Shown piece after piece: positions 364-25,546 of a DNA stretch of 32,332 nucleotides (position 1 is its first letter; each line of letters opens with the position of its first letter). The stretch covers positions 1-32,332 of the forward strand of contig DULG01000027.1 of NCBI GenBank assembly GCA_012840485.1, given 5' to 3'. The notes below the pieces were generated by a model, which was not told the origin of the DNA, searched no databases, and was given only the letters and a program-made list of their open reading frames with translations. Origin of the DNA: Clostridia bacterium (GTDB lineage: Bacteria; Bacillota; Thermoanaerobacteria; Thermoanaerobacterales; Thermoanaerobacteraceae). Both the position numbers and the translations under genes were made by a program.

Positions 364-3300
364 ATGGCATATTGCATATGTTCGAATAAATATCAAAAAA
401 ATAAACCATACATATCAAAATCTCGTTTAAAAAGTATTTATAATACCAGTATGTACGGACTTGAACAGATTGCAGTTTATGAAGATCCATTTGAACAAAT
501 GTTTACAGAGTCAATTACTTTTTTTGGTGGATCATATATTGTTTTACCAGGAATTATTGAAAACGGTGCTTTCATAGTTAAGCACTTGTTAAAGAGCATT
601 TTCTTATACAGAAGGCATTCTGAGTTTAATGAATTTTACAATAAAGCATATCAAATTTCTTTATTATTGCTAACTATTAGTGATATTATGGCAAAAAGAG
701 CAGGGTTAGGTTATAGTGAAACAAGCAAGGTCACGGATAATGATATTCAGTTGCCATCTCACGAAAGAGAAGAAATTTTATTTAAGGCTGTAACATTTGA
801 AATTTCTGAAATTGGACAGTTAATGGTTGAAAAAAATATAAATCCAGCTATATTGGAAGCGTTCGTTATTGAGTTTGGAGATCTAGACATTAATGAATTT
901 TCACAAGAAAATCATAAATTACATTTGTATCCTTTTGTGCGCATTGAAAACAAGATTATAGTGGCTATGCCTTGTAATCTTTTAGCCGTATTACGTCATT
1001 CATTAATTAACCTTTCCATTGAGTATAACTTTATTAGTGAATTCAAAAAAAATTTTGAATTAGCCATATGGAATACCGTAGTGAAATCATTAAATATAAT
1101 GGACATTAAACAACTTGAATATTCTCTTCCTGCTTATGATAAAGATCTTTCTTTTAAAGAAGGTATATTTTCCATAGATCTTGACAAAGTATTATATATT
1201 CAACTTCATACAGACGATTTTTCAAATTACGATAAAAGCATTGTGTTCGATAGAGGTTATCAGATTGATAATGAAATCTTGGAACAAAGGGCTTTGGAAG
1301 TTAAACGCTTTATACTTGAAAATAATTTAGAGATAAGAGAAGTTCTCATTATAGTACTTGTACAAACGGCAGGTCGTGGACTATTTTTAGGGTTGGAACA
1401 TTTGGTTGATGATAATTGTTTAATAATGTCAGTTAATGATTTGGAAACTATTGCATTATTAGAAGGAGGAGATTCTCTTCACCTATATAAATATGCTAAA
1501 GCTTATAGAAAGTTAAATTCTACGGCAAAGTGTATCAGCATAAACTTCTTGGATGCGTATAGTATTTATAGATCTAAAAACAAAAGTTTTTATTTATCAG
1601 ATGACAAGCATCCAAATGTGATTTATTTTTGTGTCGGAGAAGGTAGAGATGTAATTGAAGAAATGCATAGGAAAATTGCACCTCACGGAATACCATCACC
1701 TGATGGTAATGGTATTATTGAAGTTGTTTCTTTATATGGGGACAATTCAATTCCTATATTTGTATCATTAGACATGATTGGAAGAAAAGTTGCGTTGGCA
1801 GTTGAGGGAGGACAATGGATAATATGGATTAGTAGCCCTCACTTACATTCAATAGTTGCACAATTTATTGATATGGTTGCCTATTGGATATGGCAATTTT
1901 CACCAGAGCTCAACAGATTATTATTAAATGGATCGGTTTTGCATTTAGTAATTAAGCTCCATCCCATTGAATATTGGGTAGGTAAGGTTTATCCATCGCA
2001 CGATGAAGAAACAAAAATAGATTGTGTTTCATATACTGTGTCGAAAAATAGCATTTTTATAAATGTTCATTATAAGTTTACTGAATTACTTAAAGGTCCA
2101 ACAAATTTCGGTGAGCGAGAATTAATAAAAAAGATATTAATCGCTATTCAAGAATTATATGGGATTAGTTTCTCTAAGGAAATTGATGAGTTATTGGATG
2201 AATATGCTCCCTTGGGTCCAAAAAAGAAATTATTAGTCTTTGATCAAGATAATTATTCAATATTATGTGAACCTGGGACCTTCCCAAAATTAAGGTACAT
2301 TGATTCAGCCGATGAAATATTGGATAGCATAGGATTGTGGTTGCGTAATAAAAAAGGTATAAAATATGGGCAGATAGAAAATCGGATAGAAATACTTAAC
2401 GATGTAGTGGGTTATCTTTATTCAGAAATTAAAAAAATAATTTCTACATTGAAAGACCCACAGAGTGTTTTAGAAACTTTCATGCTTTATTATGAAGCAT
2501 TATTATATGAACGGGAAAAAAACAAGTTAACGTTAGTTACGGCATTATATTGTTTTTCAAATAGTAACAAGCAAAATATGATAGACCAAATTAGGGAAAA
2601 CATCGATAGAATCAATAAGTTATCACTAAGCTTGCGATTTTTAATTGAATATATAAGTGCTTGTCCACCGTATAATGGCACACAACCATTAACCTTGGAA
2701 CTGATTGATAGGTTGCTGGCGTTGTCTTCTGAACTGATTAATTGGGCCAATTATAGTGATCTTGCCAAATATCAGCTTGCTGATTTACATTTAACAATGT
2801 TGCCATCTGGTAGATTAGGGATAAGTGATGATGAGGTATATATTTCTGCTTGTACAAAATATTTACAAGAACACGCGTCAGATGTGTTAAATAAGGCTAT
2901 TGAAATGTATGAGTCAAACTGGGGGGTAAAAATAGATAATAATGATAAAATAGAAATTGATCAAGATTTAGTCGAAGCTTTTGAAGATGAGTTTGGATTT
3001 GGTTTATTTGAACTTATTGATATTATATCATCGTTGATAGAGATGGGTAGAGGAATTGCAAATGAAATTAAAAGATTGCCATTGAATAAACTCATAGATG
3101 AGTTAAAAGATCTAACTGGTTTGAGTGAAGTAACGATAAATAGAGCTATTAAGGCGTTAAGTTTAAGACCACGAGAAGATTATTTATCTCCTCCAGAAGG
3201 ATTTAGAAAAGAGGATATTTATCCCTGGAAATTTAATAGAGAACTGTCGTATTTAAGGAGGCCGTTAATATTATTTAATGACAGTGTGTTTTGGAGTAAT

Positions 3301-3897
3301 AGGCATTTATGTTATTGTTGTGGCCATATCCTTGATTTATGTTTAGATGGAAAATTAAAAGCAAAAAGTACGAAGATGAAGAAATTAATAAGCAAATACC
3401 AAAATATTAAAGGTGCAGAATTTAATCAGTCAATTTGCAACTTGTTCGCTAAGTATAACTTTTTAATAGTAAGAAGTAAAGTTAAAAAAATTAACGGCAT
3501 GAGAATAATGGATGAGAAAGGTGAATTAGGTGATATTGATGTATTGGTTATTAACCCTAAGAATAAAAAGATTTATACAATTGAATGCAAAGATCTTTCT
3601 ATTGCCAGAAACCCTTATGAGGTACATCATGAACTACATCTGATATTTTATGGTTATAAAAGCAAGGCGTCTATCGTAGAAAAGCATCTTAAAAGGACTA
3701 ACTGGATAAAGCAAAATATATCAAAAGTATTAGATGCTTACGATTTGAAACATATGAAGGGAAAATGGGCAGTTAAACCGTTGATCGTTATTAGTGAAGA
3801 AATGATTTCACCATATCTTTATGATTCTAAGGGCATACAAATTATCTCATACAATAAATTAAAAGAGGAAGTTGAGAGTGGTAAATTTTTTCGATAA
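364..3897 (+). CDS. Large multidomain protein with C-terminal PD-(D/E)XK nuclease motif
   Basis: This 1177-residue protein has no signal peptide or clear membrane segment. The first ~960 residues are mixed alpha/beta with no P-loop or other motif I recognise. A cysteine/histidine cluster lies at C983, C985, C986, H988 and C993 (CYCCGHILDLC), possibly metal-binding. The C-terminus carries a restriction-endonuclease-like signature: E1019 (KGAEFN), G-D1057-I-D1059-VLVIN, then IE1074-C-K1076. That order fits Mrr/NERD-type PD-(D/E)XK nucleases. The ATG at 364 has no good ribosome site, and the frame stays open back to 337, a few bases from the IS3 end. The native N-terminus or promoter may therefore have been cut off by the insertion. 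DNA cleavage in defence is inferred from the motif and the neighbourhood; the N-terminal role is unknown. Confidence 0.85.
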   Translation: MAYCICSNKYQKNKPYISKSRLKSIYNTSMYGLEQIAVYEDPFEQMFTESITFFGGSYIVLPGIIENGAFIVKHLLKSIFLYRRHSEFNEFYNKAYQISLLLLTISDIMAKRAGLGYSETSKVTDNDIQLPSHEREEILFKAVTFEISEIGQLMVEKNINPAILEAFVIEFGDLDINEFSQENHKLHLYPFVRIENKIIVAMPCNLLAVLRHSLINLSIEYNFISEFKKNFELAIWNTVVKSLNIMDIKQLEYSLPAYDKDLSFKEGIFSIDLDKVLYIQLHTDDFSNYDKSIVFDRGYQIDNEILEQRALEVKRFILENNLEIREVLIIVLVQTAGRGLFLGLEHLVDDNCLIMSVNDLETIALLEGGDSLHLYKYAKAYRKLNSTAKCISINFLDAYSIYRSKNKSFYLSDDKHPNVIYFCVGEGRDVIEEMHRKIAPHGIPSPDGNGIIEVVSLYGDNSIPIFVSLDMIGRKVALAVEGGQWIIWISSPHLHSIVAQFIDMVAYWIWQFSPELNRLLLNGSVLHLVIKLHPIEYWVGKVYPSHDEETKIDCVSYTVSKNSIFINVHYKFTELLKGPTNFGERELIKKILIAIQELYGISFSKEIDELLDEYAPLGPKKKLLVFDQDNYSILCEPGTFPKLRYIDSADEILDSIGLWLRNKKGIKYGQIENRIEILNDVVGYLYSEIKKIISTLKDPQSVLETFMLYYEALLYEREKNKLTLVTALYCFSNSNKQNMIDQIRENIDRINKLSLSLRFLIEYISACPPYNGTQPLTLELIDRLLALSSELINWANYSDLAKYQLADLHLTMLPSGRLGISDDEVYISACTKYLQEHASDVLNKAIEMYESNWGVKIDNNDKIEIDQDLVEAFEDEFGFGLFELIDIISSLIEMGRGIANEIKRLPLNKLIDELKDLTGLSEVTINRAIKALSLRPREDYLSPPEGFRKEDIYPWKFNRELSYLRRPLILFNDSVFWSNRHLCYCCGHILDLCLDGKLKAKSTKMKKLISKYQNIKGAEFNQSICNLFAKYNFLIVRSKVKKINGMRIMDEKGELGDIDVLVINPKNKKIYTIECKDLSIARNPYEVHHELHLIFYGYKSKASIVEKHLKRTNWIKQNISKVLDAYDLKHMKGKWAVKPLIVISEEMISPYLYDSKGIQIISYNKLKEEVESGKFFR

Positions 3898-4791: not shown

Positions 4792-5022
4792 CCCTTGACC
4801 CATTCCCCTTAGTGGGGAATGAATGAGGGAAAAGGAATAATGGTTAAGTTCTAAAGAATAACAAAGGGATAAGGGGAGAGCATTAAAAAACCAATGTTTA
4901 CGCCACTTATCCCTTTTTTCCTTGAACCATGAACTTGCTCTTTTGGAAAAACTTTTTTCACACAAATTAAAGGAGTATTTGGGTGGGGGAATGACAGGGG
5001 AAGGGCTTTTTTTAAAAATTAA
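4792..5022 (+). repeat. Copy A of the structured island repeat (shortened)
   Basis: This shares blocks in the same order with 9056-9380 and 9404-9728. First is a hairpin (CATTCCCC 4801-4808 with GGGGAATG 4814-4821), then GGGAAAAGGA. Next is a second hairpin whose arms are GGGATAAG (4866-4873) and CTTATCCC (4916-4923) followed by T6. The tail TTGGAAAAACTTTTTTCACA and a closing run of T with AAATTAA follow. About 100 bases of the tail present in the other copies are missing. Confidence 0.75.
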
Positions 5023-5440: not shown

Positions 5441-5510
5441 ATTTTCGAGGACGTTTTTAAAAACGATAGTCCTATTGCTTATAATTTAGAATATTAAAGT
5501 TAAAATTTAA

Positions 5511-5587
5511 TGGGATACCTTAATAGGTATCCCACAAAACTGTTGAGAATGCTCTGGACAGCGTCCAGTGCGATATCAGTTGTACTA
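5511..5587. repeat. Structured hairpin unit 1
   Basis: Two hairpins lie in series. The first is a perfect 10-bp stem, TGGGATACCT (5511-5520) with AGGTATCCCA (5525-5534) and a 4-base loop. The second has arms GCTCTGGAC (5551-5559) and GTCCAGTGC (5563-5571) around loop AGC, with one T-T mismatch. The linker before it reads GTTGAGAATG, and after it comes GATATCAGTTGTACTA. The same plan recurs in unit 2. No T-tract follows, so it is not a simple terminator. The transcribed strand is unknown. Confidence 0.6.
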
Positions 5588-5634
5588 TATATTATGCGAA
5601 AGCTTCCAAATTTAATACCATACAAATAATTGTA

Positions 5635-5706
5635 GCCAGTATAGCATACTGGCCGTAAAAGTTGAAAATGTTCTAAATAGCATTTAGAACGATATTTGTT
5701 GTACTA
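5635..5706. repeat. Structured hairpin unit 2 (compensatory changes relative to unit 1)
   Basis: The first hairpin pairs GCCAGTAT (5635-5642) with ATACTGGC (5646-5653) around loop AGC. The second pairs GTTCTAAAT (5670-5678) with ATTTAGAAC (5682-5690), again with loop AGC. The linker GTTGAAAATG and the tail GATATTTGTTGTACTA match unit 1 closely, while the stem bases differ on both arms and still pair. A short piece (CATA(T)CAAA-AATTGTAGC) preceding this unit near 5620 is repeated near 5775. Confidence 0.6.
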
Positions 5707-5811
5707 ATTAAATTTTAAAACCTTTTTGCCAGTATGTCAAGACCAGTACGAAGAAATTTTATTGATGGTTTTACATATCAAACAATTGTAGCAAAGCAGG
5801 CTTTATTTTGT

Positions 5812-6378
5812 TTAATGTCCTTTCATTAATAATTGCAACATGTGACTTTTCGAGTTTTTCTTACTTATAGTCCTTATTTGAGCGAGATTTATGTATCCAG
5901 TGATTTCTTTTTTGTAGTCAGGCATAATTTCAACTGGTATCTCATAATAGTCCAATTTCTTATAGCATTCATTGCCTTGATCATCCAAATATTTGATATA
6001 ATGCTTACCGTTTTCTTCCTTTAAAACTGTCATTCCTCGGTGTGTAGTGATTGGAGCTACAATAGTGGTTGGTGAACTGCTATTACCCTTATCATTTTGT
6101 AAGACTACTACTGGGCGTTTGTGATTCTGCTCGCTTCCAATATTAAAACCAAGCTCACAAAAGAATATGTACCCTTTCTTGACTACATTTGGAGTCCCCT
6201 TAAAAAAGATGCGGTACTTTTTTAGTGACCACTCCAGTATTTTTTTACCTAAAACCAGATGTTCAAGCCATATTTTTTCAATTTTATTAGGTTTTGTAAT
6301 TTGTAATTTTATTTTTTCTAGTAGCTTTGTTATATCTGATAAAAGCAGTGTTATTTCGGATTGCTCTTTATCACCCAT
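5812..6378 (-). CDS. PemK/MazF-family protein with N-terminal helical extension
   Basis: The product has 188 residues. Residues ~1-65 are helical and charged (LLLSDITKLLEKIKLQI and so on). A MazF/Kid-type domain follows: KKGYIFFCELGFNIGSEQ, KRPVVVLQND, SSPTTIVAPIT, and near the C-terminus INLAQIRTISKK. The SEQ...RP motif and the threonine of TTIVAPIT correspond to the RNA-cleaving site of MazF endoribonucleases. The start at 6378 is well supported by GGGAGGGGG a few bases upstream. The domain is longer than usual MazF (about 110-120) because of the leader and an insertion around LKEENGKHYIKYLDD. No antitoxin gene lies upstream on the same strand, unlike the mazEF pair at 24918-25546. It may be a solitary toxin or a housekeeping relative. 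Confidence 0.85.
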   Translation of the reverse strand: MGDKEQSEITLLLSDITKLLEKIKLQITKPNKIEKIWLEHLVLGKKILEWSLKKYRIFFKGTPNVVKKGYIFFCELGFNIGSEQNHKRPVVVLQNDKGNSSSPTTIVAPITTHRGMTVLKEENGKHYIKYLDDQGNECYKKLDYYEIPVEIMPDYKKEITGYINLAQIRTISKKNSKSHMLQLLMKGH

Positions 6379-6543
6379 AAGTATGTTACCCCCTCCCTGA
6401 ATGATTTTAAGATATTCTCGTTGTATAAAATTATAAGTATCATTTTCCTATTTCTCAATACTATTCTTTATCTTTTTCATAATGGATGCTATAATTCTAT
6501 CATCAGCCAATGAAGGGGGATGTATTGCTTGACATGGCAGTAA

Positions 6544-6868: not shown

Positions 6869-8356
6869 ATGTTGCAAAATATTTTGGAAAGAATTGAATG
6901 GGAAGTATTAAGAGACAAAATCATTATTCAAAACTTAACAAGTCTCGGTGGACTTCCAAAAGGTTCCCAACGAATTGAAGTTTGGAGAGATGAGTCATAT
7001 AAAATTAAAGCAAAAGTGTATGGAACCGTCAGCAATAATGATGAGCATAGTAAATTTGAAAAAGGTATAGCTGGAACTAAAGTACCAACGTTTACTGTTG
7101 AAGGTACTGATGTTACTGGCTTAGTAAAATATACATTAAATCATTGTTTTGTAAGAAACATTCAAAAGAAGTTTGTTTGGAACGGTAAAGGTTATGTGAC
7201 AAATTTTGAGGCAGAACTAGTTACATATGAGTTAAAGATTCAATTTTCTGCACAAGAGCAAAGTGACTGGCATGTTGAGTGGTTTTTGAATGGACCCGAT
7301 GATTCTGAACATATATTTCTATTTCCGAGAACTACAAAAAGAAGTTTTTCCCAAACATTTGTAAGGGAACGTCTATCAGTTGACAGGGAAAGTAAAAGTT
7401 ATTCTGTAGGTGCAGGTGAAAGTTATAATAACGATTTTGCTTTTATTGATACAGGTAAAATAAAATATATTCTTAGTAAGGTTCCTAAAGGTTTAGGACC
7501 CGAGTGGTCAAATAATATTGGTATAGAATACCGTAGGGAATGGGGGGGAATCCCAGACCGAGACACAAGAGAAGCTATAGCTGAAATAACAAGTTTTATA
7601 ATTGGCAAGCATTTATTGAATATTGGTTACTCAACATTTGATTCAATGGGACAACCAATTGAACAGGTCGCTTTAAATCCATGGGGCAATAACGTGATCT
7701 CTTTGTCTCGGTCACCTGGGTTATCTCCTATTCGGTTTTCTTTTTCTGATTTTAACAGAATAGAAAAAGTTTTGAATCAGGTTGTACCCAGGTATTTAGA
7801 ATTACGGAACGTATTAAATTTGAACGAGGCGCTATGGAGGTATTGGATTTCTAATGACCTGCCTATCGGGGCAAACCTTCCAATATTACATGCAGGTGTT
7901 GAGATATTAGCAAAAGCGTGGTTCAAATCAAACAAATCAAAGACAAAGGGTGTTTATTTATCGAAGAAAGAGTTTGATGAGTTAATTGAAGATGGTATGA
8001 AAATCATTGTCCCCAAATTACAAGGGCAAAAATACGGAGATAGGATGATTCGTAAAATATCAGACGCCTATAAAATGACACAAAACGAACAGTTAGCATT
8101 CTTTTTTGAGGAGATTGGTTTGAATATTGGAGAAGTGGAAAATGAGGCGTTAAAAGGAAGAAATATAATGGCTCATGGAAGTTCTAGTCAACCCGATGAG
8201 GAAATAAGTTACCTTATTTATTTAACCCGTTCTTATCAGACATTATTCCATCGCATTTTCCTAAAAATTTTAGGATATACAGAGAATTATATTGACTATT
8301 CAACAGAGGGATGGCCAGAGCGGCATATAGATGAGCCATTAGGAGGGAATAAATAA
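6869..8356 (+). CDS. HEPN-domain protein, possible ApeA-like RNase
   Basis: The product has 495 residues and starts at ATG 6869 behind a good GGAGGTGAT ribosome site. There is no signal or membrane segment. The N-terminal ~300 residues look beta-rich and contain no motif I can name (an FPRTTKRSF segment and YRREWGG stand out). The C-terminal ~170 residues are helical and carry R431-N-I-M-A-H436 (LKGRNIMAHGS), the RNxxxH signature of HEPN ribonucleases. The layout of a long beta-rich domain ahead of a HEPN domain recalls ApeA-type abortive-infection proteins, but I cannot confirm the N-terminal family. It stands alone, with a remnant of another gene 280 bases downstream. RNA cleavage upon infection is an inference from the motif and the island. 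Confidence 0.7.
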   Translation: MLQNILERIEWEVLRDKIIIQNLTSLGGLPKGSQRIEVWRDESYKIKAKVYGTVSNNDEHSKFEKGIAGTKVPTFTVEGTDVTGLVKYTLNHCFVRNIQKKFVWNGKGYVTNFEAELVTYELKIQFSAQEQSDWHVEWFLNGPDDSEHIFLFPRTTKRSFSQTFVRERLSVDRESKSYSVGAGESYNNDFAFIDTGKIKYILSKVPKGLGPEWSNNIGIEYRREWGGIPDRDTREAIAEITSFIIGKHLLNIGYSTFDSMGQPIEQVALNPWGNNVISLSRSPGLSPIRFSFSDFNRIEKVLNQVVPRYLELRNVLNLNEALWRYWISNDLPIGANLPILHAGVEILAKAWFKSNKSKTKGVYLSKKEFDELIEDGMKIIVPKLQGQKYGDRMIRKISDAYKMTQNEQLAFFFEEIGLNIGEVENEALKGRNIMAHGSSSQPDEEISYLIYLTRSYQTLFHRIFLKILGYTENYIDYSTEGWPERHIDEPLGGNK

Positions 8357-9055: not shown

Positions 9056-9380
9056 CTTTTCCCCATGCGAAAAAAGGGGTTCCGTTGATGGGTAAGAAAG
9101 GGAAAAGGATTAAGGATTAAGTCTTTACAGAATAACAAAGGGATAAGTGGTAAAGCCTCGAAAAATTCTGGATTTACGCCACTTATCCCTTTTTCCTTTT
9201 ATCCTTGACACTGTCCATTTGGAAAAACTTTTTTCACACAAATTAGAGCAGAATTTGGGAAATTATAGGAGAAATATTACTGCCTTACGGAAAAACTTTA
9301 TTACCTCCCAGAAAATGCCATGTAGATATTATGCTGGTTTGAGGGGAGGGGAATGGAAAGGGTTTTTTTTAAATCAACAA
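9056..9380 (+). repeat. Copy B of the structured island repeat (tandem unit 1)
   Basis: The unit is 325 bases and repeats at exactly 348-base offset in copy C with no net insertion or deletion. Parts in order: CTTTTCCCCATGCGAAAAAA with GGGGTTCCG (a CCCC/GGGG hairpin), GGGAAAAGGATTAAGG, then a long hairpin. That hairpin pairs GGGATAAGTGG (9140-9150) with CCACTTATCCC (9179-9189) and is followed by TTTTTCC. Last comes a tail with TTTGGAAAAACTTTTTTCAC, a block TTTATTACCTCCCAGAAAAT and a closing T8-AAATCAACAA. An 84-codon frame crosses the second half; it is listed here as repeat because the hairpin arms are inside it. Confidence 0.85.
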
Positions 9381-24917: not shown

Positions 24918-25193
24918 GTGGGCGAGACGAAACGGATACTTGTAAGTTTACCCCAAAGCTTATTGGAAGAAGTTGACATTCTTGCCGCTATGGAAAATAG
25001 AAACCGGAGCGAATTTATAAGGGAAGCGATGAAATTGTATATACGGGAGAGAAAAAAAGTTCAAATACGAGAGAGTATGAAAAAAGGTTATCTTGAGATG
25101 GCAGCTATAAATACTGAACTTGCGGAAATGGGCCTAACCGCAGAAAATGAATGTTTTACAGGATATGAAATGAAATTGAAAAAGTGTGATTGA
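24918..25193 (+). CDS. mazE: MazE/EndoAI-type antitoxin (ribbon-helix-helix)
   Basis: The product has 91 residues from GTG 24918, chosen because AAGGAGGT (24902-24909) stands right before it; an upstream GTG at 24897 precedes that site. The N-terminal RHH fold is [20 protein letters not shown] followed by [20 protein letters not shown], and an acidic tail follows. It binds its own promoter and neutralises the MazF encoded 2 bases downstream. It is the equivalent of Bacillus NdoAI (YdcD), which lies in the same place after alr. Confidence 0.92.
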
Positions 25194-25195
25194 CT

Positions 25196-25546
25196 ATGGT
25201 GATAAAGAGGGGAGATATTTTTTATGCCGATTTAAGCCCTGTAATAGGCTCTGAACAGGGTGGAATTCGGCCTGTACTTATAATTCAAAATGATATTGGC
25301 AATAAGTATAGTCCCACCGTAATTGTGGCAGCGATTACATCCCAAATTAATAAAGCTAAGTTACCCACTCATGTTGAGATAAATGGGGCAGAATATGGAC
25401 TTAATAAAGATTCTGTGGTATTATTAGAACAGATAAGAACTATTGATAAAAAGCGTTTAAGAGAAAAAATTGGGCATTTTGATCAGGAAATGATGGAAAA
25501 GGTCAATGAGGCTTTACAAATAAGCCTGGGGTTGATTGATTTTTAA
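25196..25546 (+). CDS. mazF: MazF/NdoA mRNA endoribonuclease toxin
   Basis: The product has 116 residues from ATG 25196, exactly the length of Bacillus NdoA (EndoA). It starts [20 protein letters not shown] and contains [37 protein letters not shown] and [15 protein letters not shown]. It cleaves mRNA, in Bacillus at UACAU. No separate ribosome site is seen and the ATG is 2 bases after the mazE stop, so translation is coupled. Compare the orphan relative at 5812-6378, which has a leader and no partner. A terminator follows at once. Confidence 0.96.

Follow-up and report, generated by a model that had tools for sequence, protein, structure and literature searches.

A tandem-hairpin RNA gene downstream of an N-terminally extended PemK toxin gene as a candidate RNA antitoxin

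What is an element in which two hairpin units share their linkers and loops while their stems differ, which matches no known RNA family, and what might it be doing in a bacterial genome? The question is raised by contig DULG01000027.1 of the Clostridia bacterium assembly GCA_012840485.1 (32,332 nt, referred to at its full length as the window), in which an earlier note, made from the sequence alone, had pointed to two such units as a candidate structured RNA. Judged by its sequence, the element is a small tandem-hairpin RNA gene of the minus strand rather than the plus strand (about 197 nt, running from window position 5706 to 5510, its four hairpins arranged as two pairs), and it sits downstream of, and on the same strand as, a PemK/MazF-type toxin gene. 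We consider it probable, if far from assured, that this tandem-hairpin RNA is the RNA partner, or antitoxin, of the adjacent extended PemK in a type III-like manner, a reading adopted because similar RNAs accompany related toxin genes on bacterial chromosomes, on plasmids and in phages. The strand, the tie to the neighbouring pemK and the counterparts beside related toxin genes are points that the earlier note had missed.

The minus strand was assigned because the promoter, the terminator-like hairpins and the G-U pairs agree on it. The promoter (5712-5740, minus strand; -35 TTGACA at 5740-5735, a 17-nt spacer and -10 TAAAAT at 5717-5712) matches the consensus at 11 of 12 positions, and its placement predicts an RNA start at about 5706, which is base 1 of the conserved segment TAGTACAAC. 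Unit 2 (5634-5706, minus strand) consists of that 5' segment, hairpin A (9 bp, loop GCT), the linker CATTTTCAACTTTTAC, which contains TTTTCAAC, and hairpin B, whose loop is likewise GCT. Unit 1 (5510-5587, minus strand) has the same 5' segment, hairpin A, the linker CATTCTCAAC and hairpin B (GGGATACC/GGTATCCC), this last hairpin being 11 bp long and terminator-like; a -10-like CATAAT (5591-5596, minus strand), without a good -35, stands 5' of it in the inter-unit spacer, and transcription of unit 1 may start at a weak promoter here or come through from unit 2. Inside each pair the hairpins recur with a period of about 36-40 nt, and it is structure and short motifs that the units have in common, their sequences not being near-identical. 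The units, linkers (GTTGARAATG), AGC loops and tails (GATATYnGTTGTACTA) described in the earlier note are all where it had placed them, and its stem swap of CTGGAC/GTCCAG for CTAAAT/ATTTAG was verified in the sequence; the shared two-unit plan stands as well, but a better repeat unit is the single hairpin behind a CAAC-containing segment, of which there are four in two pairs. The predicted fold of the 197-nt RNA has an energy of -56.3 kcal/mol (z = -5.3 versus dinucleotide shuffles), a 261-nt version gives z = -5.55 on the minus strand versus -4.37 on the plus strand, and 3 of the 12 perfect hairpins of at least 8 bp in the whole 32-kb window lie inside the RNA (shuffles yield 3-6 per 32 kb). 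Rfam, like the earlier note, offers no family for the window RNA, the sub-threshold Rfam matches in the window being chance ones.

That the stems have been under selection for base pairing, as had been proposed, is supported by covariation between the units as well as across homologs. Among ten units from the window, from a second genome (G002) and from the viral contig L148, 92% of cells are paired, and among the twelve units of loci L086, L092 and L232 the figure is 84 of 84, percentages that were partly obtained by construction, the units having been picked for being hairpins, which counts against reading too much into them. In the first set 7 of 9 pairs show changes in both bases, the covariation score is 0.77 (0.28 when shuffled), and sliding the partner by one base leaves a pairing of 31-34%; in the second, all 7 pairs do, with a score of 1.35 (0.28 when shuffled) and a nearly constant loop, ACGAGTG. 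The hairpin stems covary strongly and their wobbles are compatible with the toxin strand only: on the pemK strand the stems include 16 G-U pairs and 1 A-C pair, and the opposite strand would turn the 16 into mismatches.

Further copies were looked for, and one is present in a single genome (G002, which belongs to a different family) of the 24 searched within the order, the window genome itself holding just one copy of the cassette. The homologous block extends from window position 5510 to about 6751 at ~88% DNA identity, the neighbouring pemK included, and stops exactly at the end of the terminal hairpin of unit 1. The -35 and -10 of the RNA promoter are unchanged, with 1 change in the promoter spacer, and the four hairpins together show 4 substitutions in 88 positions (0/21 and 1/21 in hairpins A and B of unit 2, 2/21 and 1/25 in those of unit 1), whereas the 50 nt between pemK and the RNA promoter have accumulated 11 substitutions and 11 indel columns, and the 46 nt between the units 8 substitutions; CATAAT is unchanged and falls within a conserved block of 25 nt. 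Those changes that do affect the stems preserve or restore pairing (C-G to U-G, A-A to A-U and G-U to A-U). The claim of a structured RNA is thereby further backed, as promoter and hairpins are kept while the spacers diverge, and relatives exist elsewhere. The same comparison could be taken to suggest that the units derive from a mobile element, as its ends or as what is left of it (a miniature inverted-repeat transposable element, an IS200/IS605-type insertion sequence end or an attC-like site), given that the cassette has moved between families and that the homology ends at the terminal hairpin. This alternative, which the earlier note had itself raised, was not borne out and is hardly credible: no transposase, terminal repeats or further cassette copies in the genome were found, inspection did not reveal the inverted RYYYAAC/GTTRRRY core of integron attC sites, and the promoter and hairpins are conserved as in an RNA gene, with a bias in G-U pairs.

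The toxin gene, an extended pemK (5812-6378, minus strand; 188 codons as read), has PF02452 PemK_toxin (2.5e-15, residues 67-178) as the sole domain matched above cut-off, and its sequence matches in the PDB are MazF/EndoA/PemK. Some 65 extra N-terminal residues, a helical extension, precede that domain; homologs share the extension and have a longer C-terminus. The fold evidence comes from a model of the L148 homolog with a mean predicted local distance difference test (pLDDT) score of 67, the window protein itself having given a pLDDT of 38 in single-sequence AlphaFold, and in this model two N-terminal helices are followed by a MazF fold/barrel at residues 73-203, which aligns with MazF chains at a VIA-align Z of ~12 (root-mean-square deviation 2.3, ~100 residues aligned). 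Chains of ToxN, AbiQ and CptN, which may nonetheless share the fold, were absent among the fold-search matches listed. No open reading frame (ORF) of pemI/mazE size lies upstream, where only ORFs of 28-35 codons are present on the pemK strand within 490 bp, and the position upstream of pemK in G002 is occupied by an unrelated gene. A toxin promoter-like site (6430-6458, minus strand; TTGAGA-17-TATAAT) has 11 of 12 consensus matches. Across the first 118 codons, the window and G002 genes differ by 24 synonymous and 7 nonsynonymous changes, and because the ratio of nonsynonymous to synonymous rates (dN/dS) is ~0.08, the protein was under purifying selection in the past. Both genes are, however, damaged while the RNA looks intact in both: that of G002 by a 29-bp deletion and that of the window by a C-terminal frameshift relative to intact homologs (the homolog-aligned stop would fall at ~5771-5773). 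With the toxin frame broken near the C-terminus and the RNA apparently intact, the system is probably decaying in the window genome. The window also has a second mazF (25187-25546, plus strand), which is canonical (PF02452, 3.7e-40) and without the extension.

Is such an RNA found next to other toxins of this kind? The proteins nearest to the window PemK are encoded on viral contigs, namely L147 and L148 (50% identity) and L149 (45%). In L148, TTGACA lies 19 nt after the stop and is followed by four hairpin units in two pairs, built as CAAC-TTTTAGC-(9 bp)-3 nt-(9 bp) and aligning to the window units without gaps; the second pair has its own TATAAT in front, the arrangement seen with CATAAT in the window. 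A promoter-like sequence 0-6 nt past the stop and two hairpins are present in L147, L149, L151 and L152, and more distant extended relatives show the same plan with different stems. Four hairpins lie downstream of the extended pemK in L153 and L154, and also on plasmid pA of Bacillus velezensis (NZ_CP130609.1), with TTTCAAC as linker and a promoter 9 nt past the stop; two hairpins with the linker TTTTTCAAA occur on the Fusobacterium nucleatum plasmid CP053469.1, and the plan recurs in genomes G325, G286, G295, G383 and G367 and in viral contig L232. Relatives from Firmicutes, from Bacillus and Fusobacterium plasmids and from phage contigs mostly have their own predicted downstream tandem hairpins, usually preceded by a promoter. 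In one locus (L083, genome G367), similar two-stem units lie on both sides of the extended pemK, upstream and downstream, and this locus could link the two arrangements.

These promoters also bear on the plainer account in which the hairpins are the 3' untranslated region or terminator of the pemK messenger RNA (mRNA), ending or stabilising the transcript, with the intervening promoter being incidental. The last hairpin is indeed terminator-like and no other terminator follows pemK, yet a consensus promoter between pemK and the hairpins is kept in G002 and recurs in many relatives 0-70 nt past the stop, a terminator would not require as many as four hairpins or the conservation of their linkers and loops, and canonical mazF genes are without such hairpins, all of which makes this account quite improbable. 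Over the region 30-200 nt after the stop, the median fold z is -2.8 for extended PemK (n = 20) versus -0.6 for canonical mazF (n = 79), a difference whose Mann-Whitney p of 1.5e-6 is only indicative because the loci compared are phylogenetically non-independent, which counts against taking it at face value; a promoter-like site no more than 80 nt past the stop was seen in 9 of 20 extended PemK loci versus 3 of 79 canonical mazF loci.

The association also emerges when the search starts from the RNA. A covariance model (R3) built from the two hairpins of L086, L092 and L232 had matches in 5 of 396 genomes at E <= 0.001, four of which lie directly after an extended pemK, including those of G295 and G241, both outside the model building, and in G241 the extended pemK next to the matched RNA is broken; the model also detects L233, L101, L153, L154 and L145. 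What the analysis establishes is an RNA gene, conserved, structured and equipped with a promoter, that accompanies a PemK family of the antitoxin-less kind. An RNA that survives a broken toxin (window, G002, G241) or an absent one (the fifth genome, G125) behaves as an antitoxin might, the cases being few and toxin decay having other causes too. The orphan RNA of G125 (L242:1501-1578, minus strand) has the two hairpins of the L086 type and no pemK nearby, its neighbours, named by eye, being a PIN-like gene, a Phd-like gene and an HD-like protein.

The same orphan would suit an RNA that is a genuine structured small RNA (sRNA), or a substrate, linked to PemK without being its antitoxin, for example a trans-acting regulator, a decoy or an RNA whose cleavage by PemK sets off signalling, and the conserved single-strand segments CAAC and TTTCAA could serve other partners as well. 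We regard this as unlikely, given the position of the remaining RNA-first matches and the fact that no protein antitoxin gene was found to control the toxin. A type I-like arrangement, in which base pairing of the RNA to the pemK mRNA would shut off translation, would be in keeping with an sRNA gene adjoining a toxin gene; the RNA gene and pemK do not overlap, however, and the best duplexes of the RNA with the pemK mRNA (whole or start region) were no better than those of shuffled RNA in either of two genomes, which renders it very improbable.

The RNA antitoxin reading retains the better part of our confidence, and several observations weigh against it, in addition to the limits already attached to the pairing percentages and the fold comparison. 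The RNA lies after the toxin, whereas in known type III systems it lies before; the hairpin pair of G125 looks genuine and has no pemK; the extended PemK loci L142, L143, L172 and L177 have no obvious downstream RNA (in L142 and L143, which may use another antitoxin, a terminator alone follows); the window toxin may be inactive; and the RNA sequences diverge too fast for two further models to reach most relatives, R1 having found the window itself only in 398 genomes of the phylum and R2 no relatives beyond the window, G002 and L148. Nucleotide searches with the RNA against plasmids and phages gave no match. An exact-pattern scan of 85k genomes returned 34 matches, about the chance expectation, nearly all in long open frames and almost never with the stem, and none of the viral pattern matches (L004, L040-L048) had a stem at the expected position.

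If the RNA is indeed the antidote, then it would be made in excess from its own promoter, and its hairpin units together with the conserved single-strand CAAC-type segments would attach to PemK, with the N-terminal helical extension as a possible contact, and obstruct its ribonuclease site; were the unstable RNA to disappear, for instance when phage infection halts host transcription, the toxin would be set free. Neutralisation of the PemK protein by the RNA, binding included, is thus proposed by analogy with type III systems, whose overall logic (an RNA antitoxin) would be retained here with a MazF-family toxin and a downstream RNA gene with its own promoter.

How does this compare with the systems already described? 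In type III systems (ToxIN, AbiQ, CptIN and TenpIN; PMC5086642), the endoribonuclease is held inactive by bound RNA units 34-50 nt long (PMC5086642, PMC12373285), the near-identical repeats share an operon with the toxin and precede it, a Rho-independent terminator lying between the two, and the toxins have a MazF/Kid-like fold, the barrel shared with PemK being literature knowledge (PMC5086642). The locus described here resembles them in its short tandem structured RNA units beside an endoribonuclease of MazF/Kid-like fold and in its mobility and phage, plasmid and defence-island setting, and it differs in that the RNA is downstream of pemK with its own promoter, that the units share their plan more than their sequence, and that the toxin belongs to PF02452 (PemK/MazF) rather than to the ToxN, CptN or TenpN sequence families; it was not placed within type III because of the operon order and the toxin family. 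With type II MazEF/PemIK it shares the toxin domain and the predicted fold, and it differs by the additional N-terminal helical domain, the downstream RNA gene and the lack of an upstream protein antitoxin gene, for which last reason it was not assigned to type II; nor was it assigned to type I, since complementarity between the RNA and the pemK mRNA was not found. The AbiF noncoding RNA (PMC12373285), which counteracts a toxin from a Bacillota prophage as an antitoxin of type III-like action, likewise has two tandem structured motifs, whereas AbiF is a HEPN protein with its RNA upstream, and the RNA sequences differ. An abiF RNA-like hairpin (L086:1810-1846, minus strand; RF03085, 33.9 bits, below the cut-off of 37) lies ~100 nt upstream of the G325 extended pemK, which has downstream tandem hairpins. 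The Rfam "pemK RNA" (RF02913) is alike in name only, being another motif, of 61 nt with three stems, that is listed as cis-regulatory, and it was not detected in G000 or G002 at E <= 1, in the window scans or in the scanned extended-pemK loci.

The wider proposition, on which we are evenly divided, is that there is an undescribed, widespread class of the MazF/PemK superfamily neutralised by RNA rather than protein, in which the partner interface is provided by the N-terminal helical extension in place of a protein antitoxin and a tandem covarying hairpin RNA lies 3' of the toxin with its own promoter, such a class occurring in Firmicutes, Fusobacteria, plasmids and phages and bridging types II and III. 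If that is true, a family with the sequence of PemK/MazF and an apparent RNA partner would be a candidate intermediate, and RNA-partnered PemK would account for part of the large number of "orphan" PemK genes that have no antitoxin. Published type III surveys searched the upstream side of ToxN-like genes for repeats (PMC5086642), and surveys targeting upstream repeats would have missed the downstream-RNA arrangement. No description of such an RNA was found in the open-access literature, a scope within which a 2017 paper of 224 candidate RNAs does not fall, and an earlier description is possible.

The surroundings of the locus offer some minor observations. A ~110-bp repeat (4800-4935 and 9099-9208; 79% identical, in direct orientation) flanks the pemK-RNA-HEPN region of the window, is itself an imperfect inverted repeat (AACAAAGGGATAAG...CCACTTATCCCTTTTT) and has two more copies on contig C12. 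The large protein encoded at 364-3897 (plus strand) has a partial match to the anti-phage protein Upx that is far below cut-off (NCBIfam 2.1e-58, PADLOC 1.6e-47) and is taken for a divergent Upx relative in an apparent defence island. The 495-aa protein encoded at 6869-8356 (plus strand) has a weak HEPN/ApeA-like C-terminus with an RNIMAHG motif (Pfam E 0.036), and because a fragment of it lies on the opposite side of the RNA in G002 (L025:7894-8049), the order of the island is rearranged.
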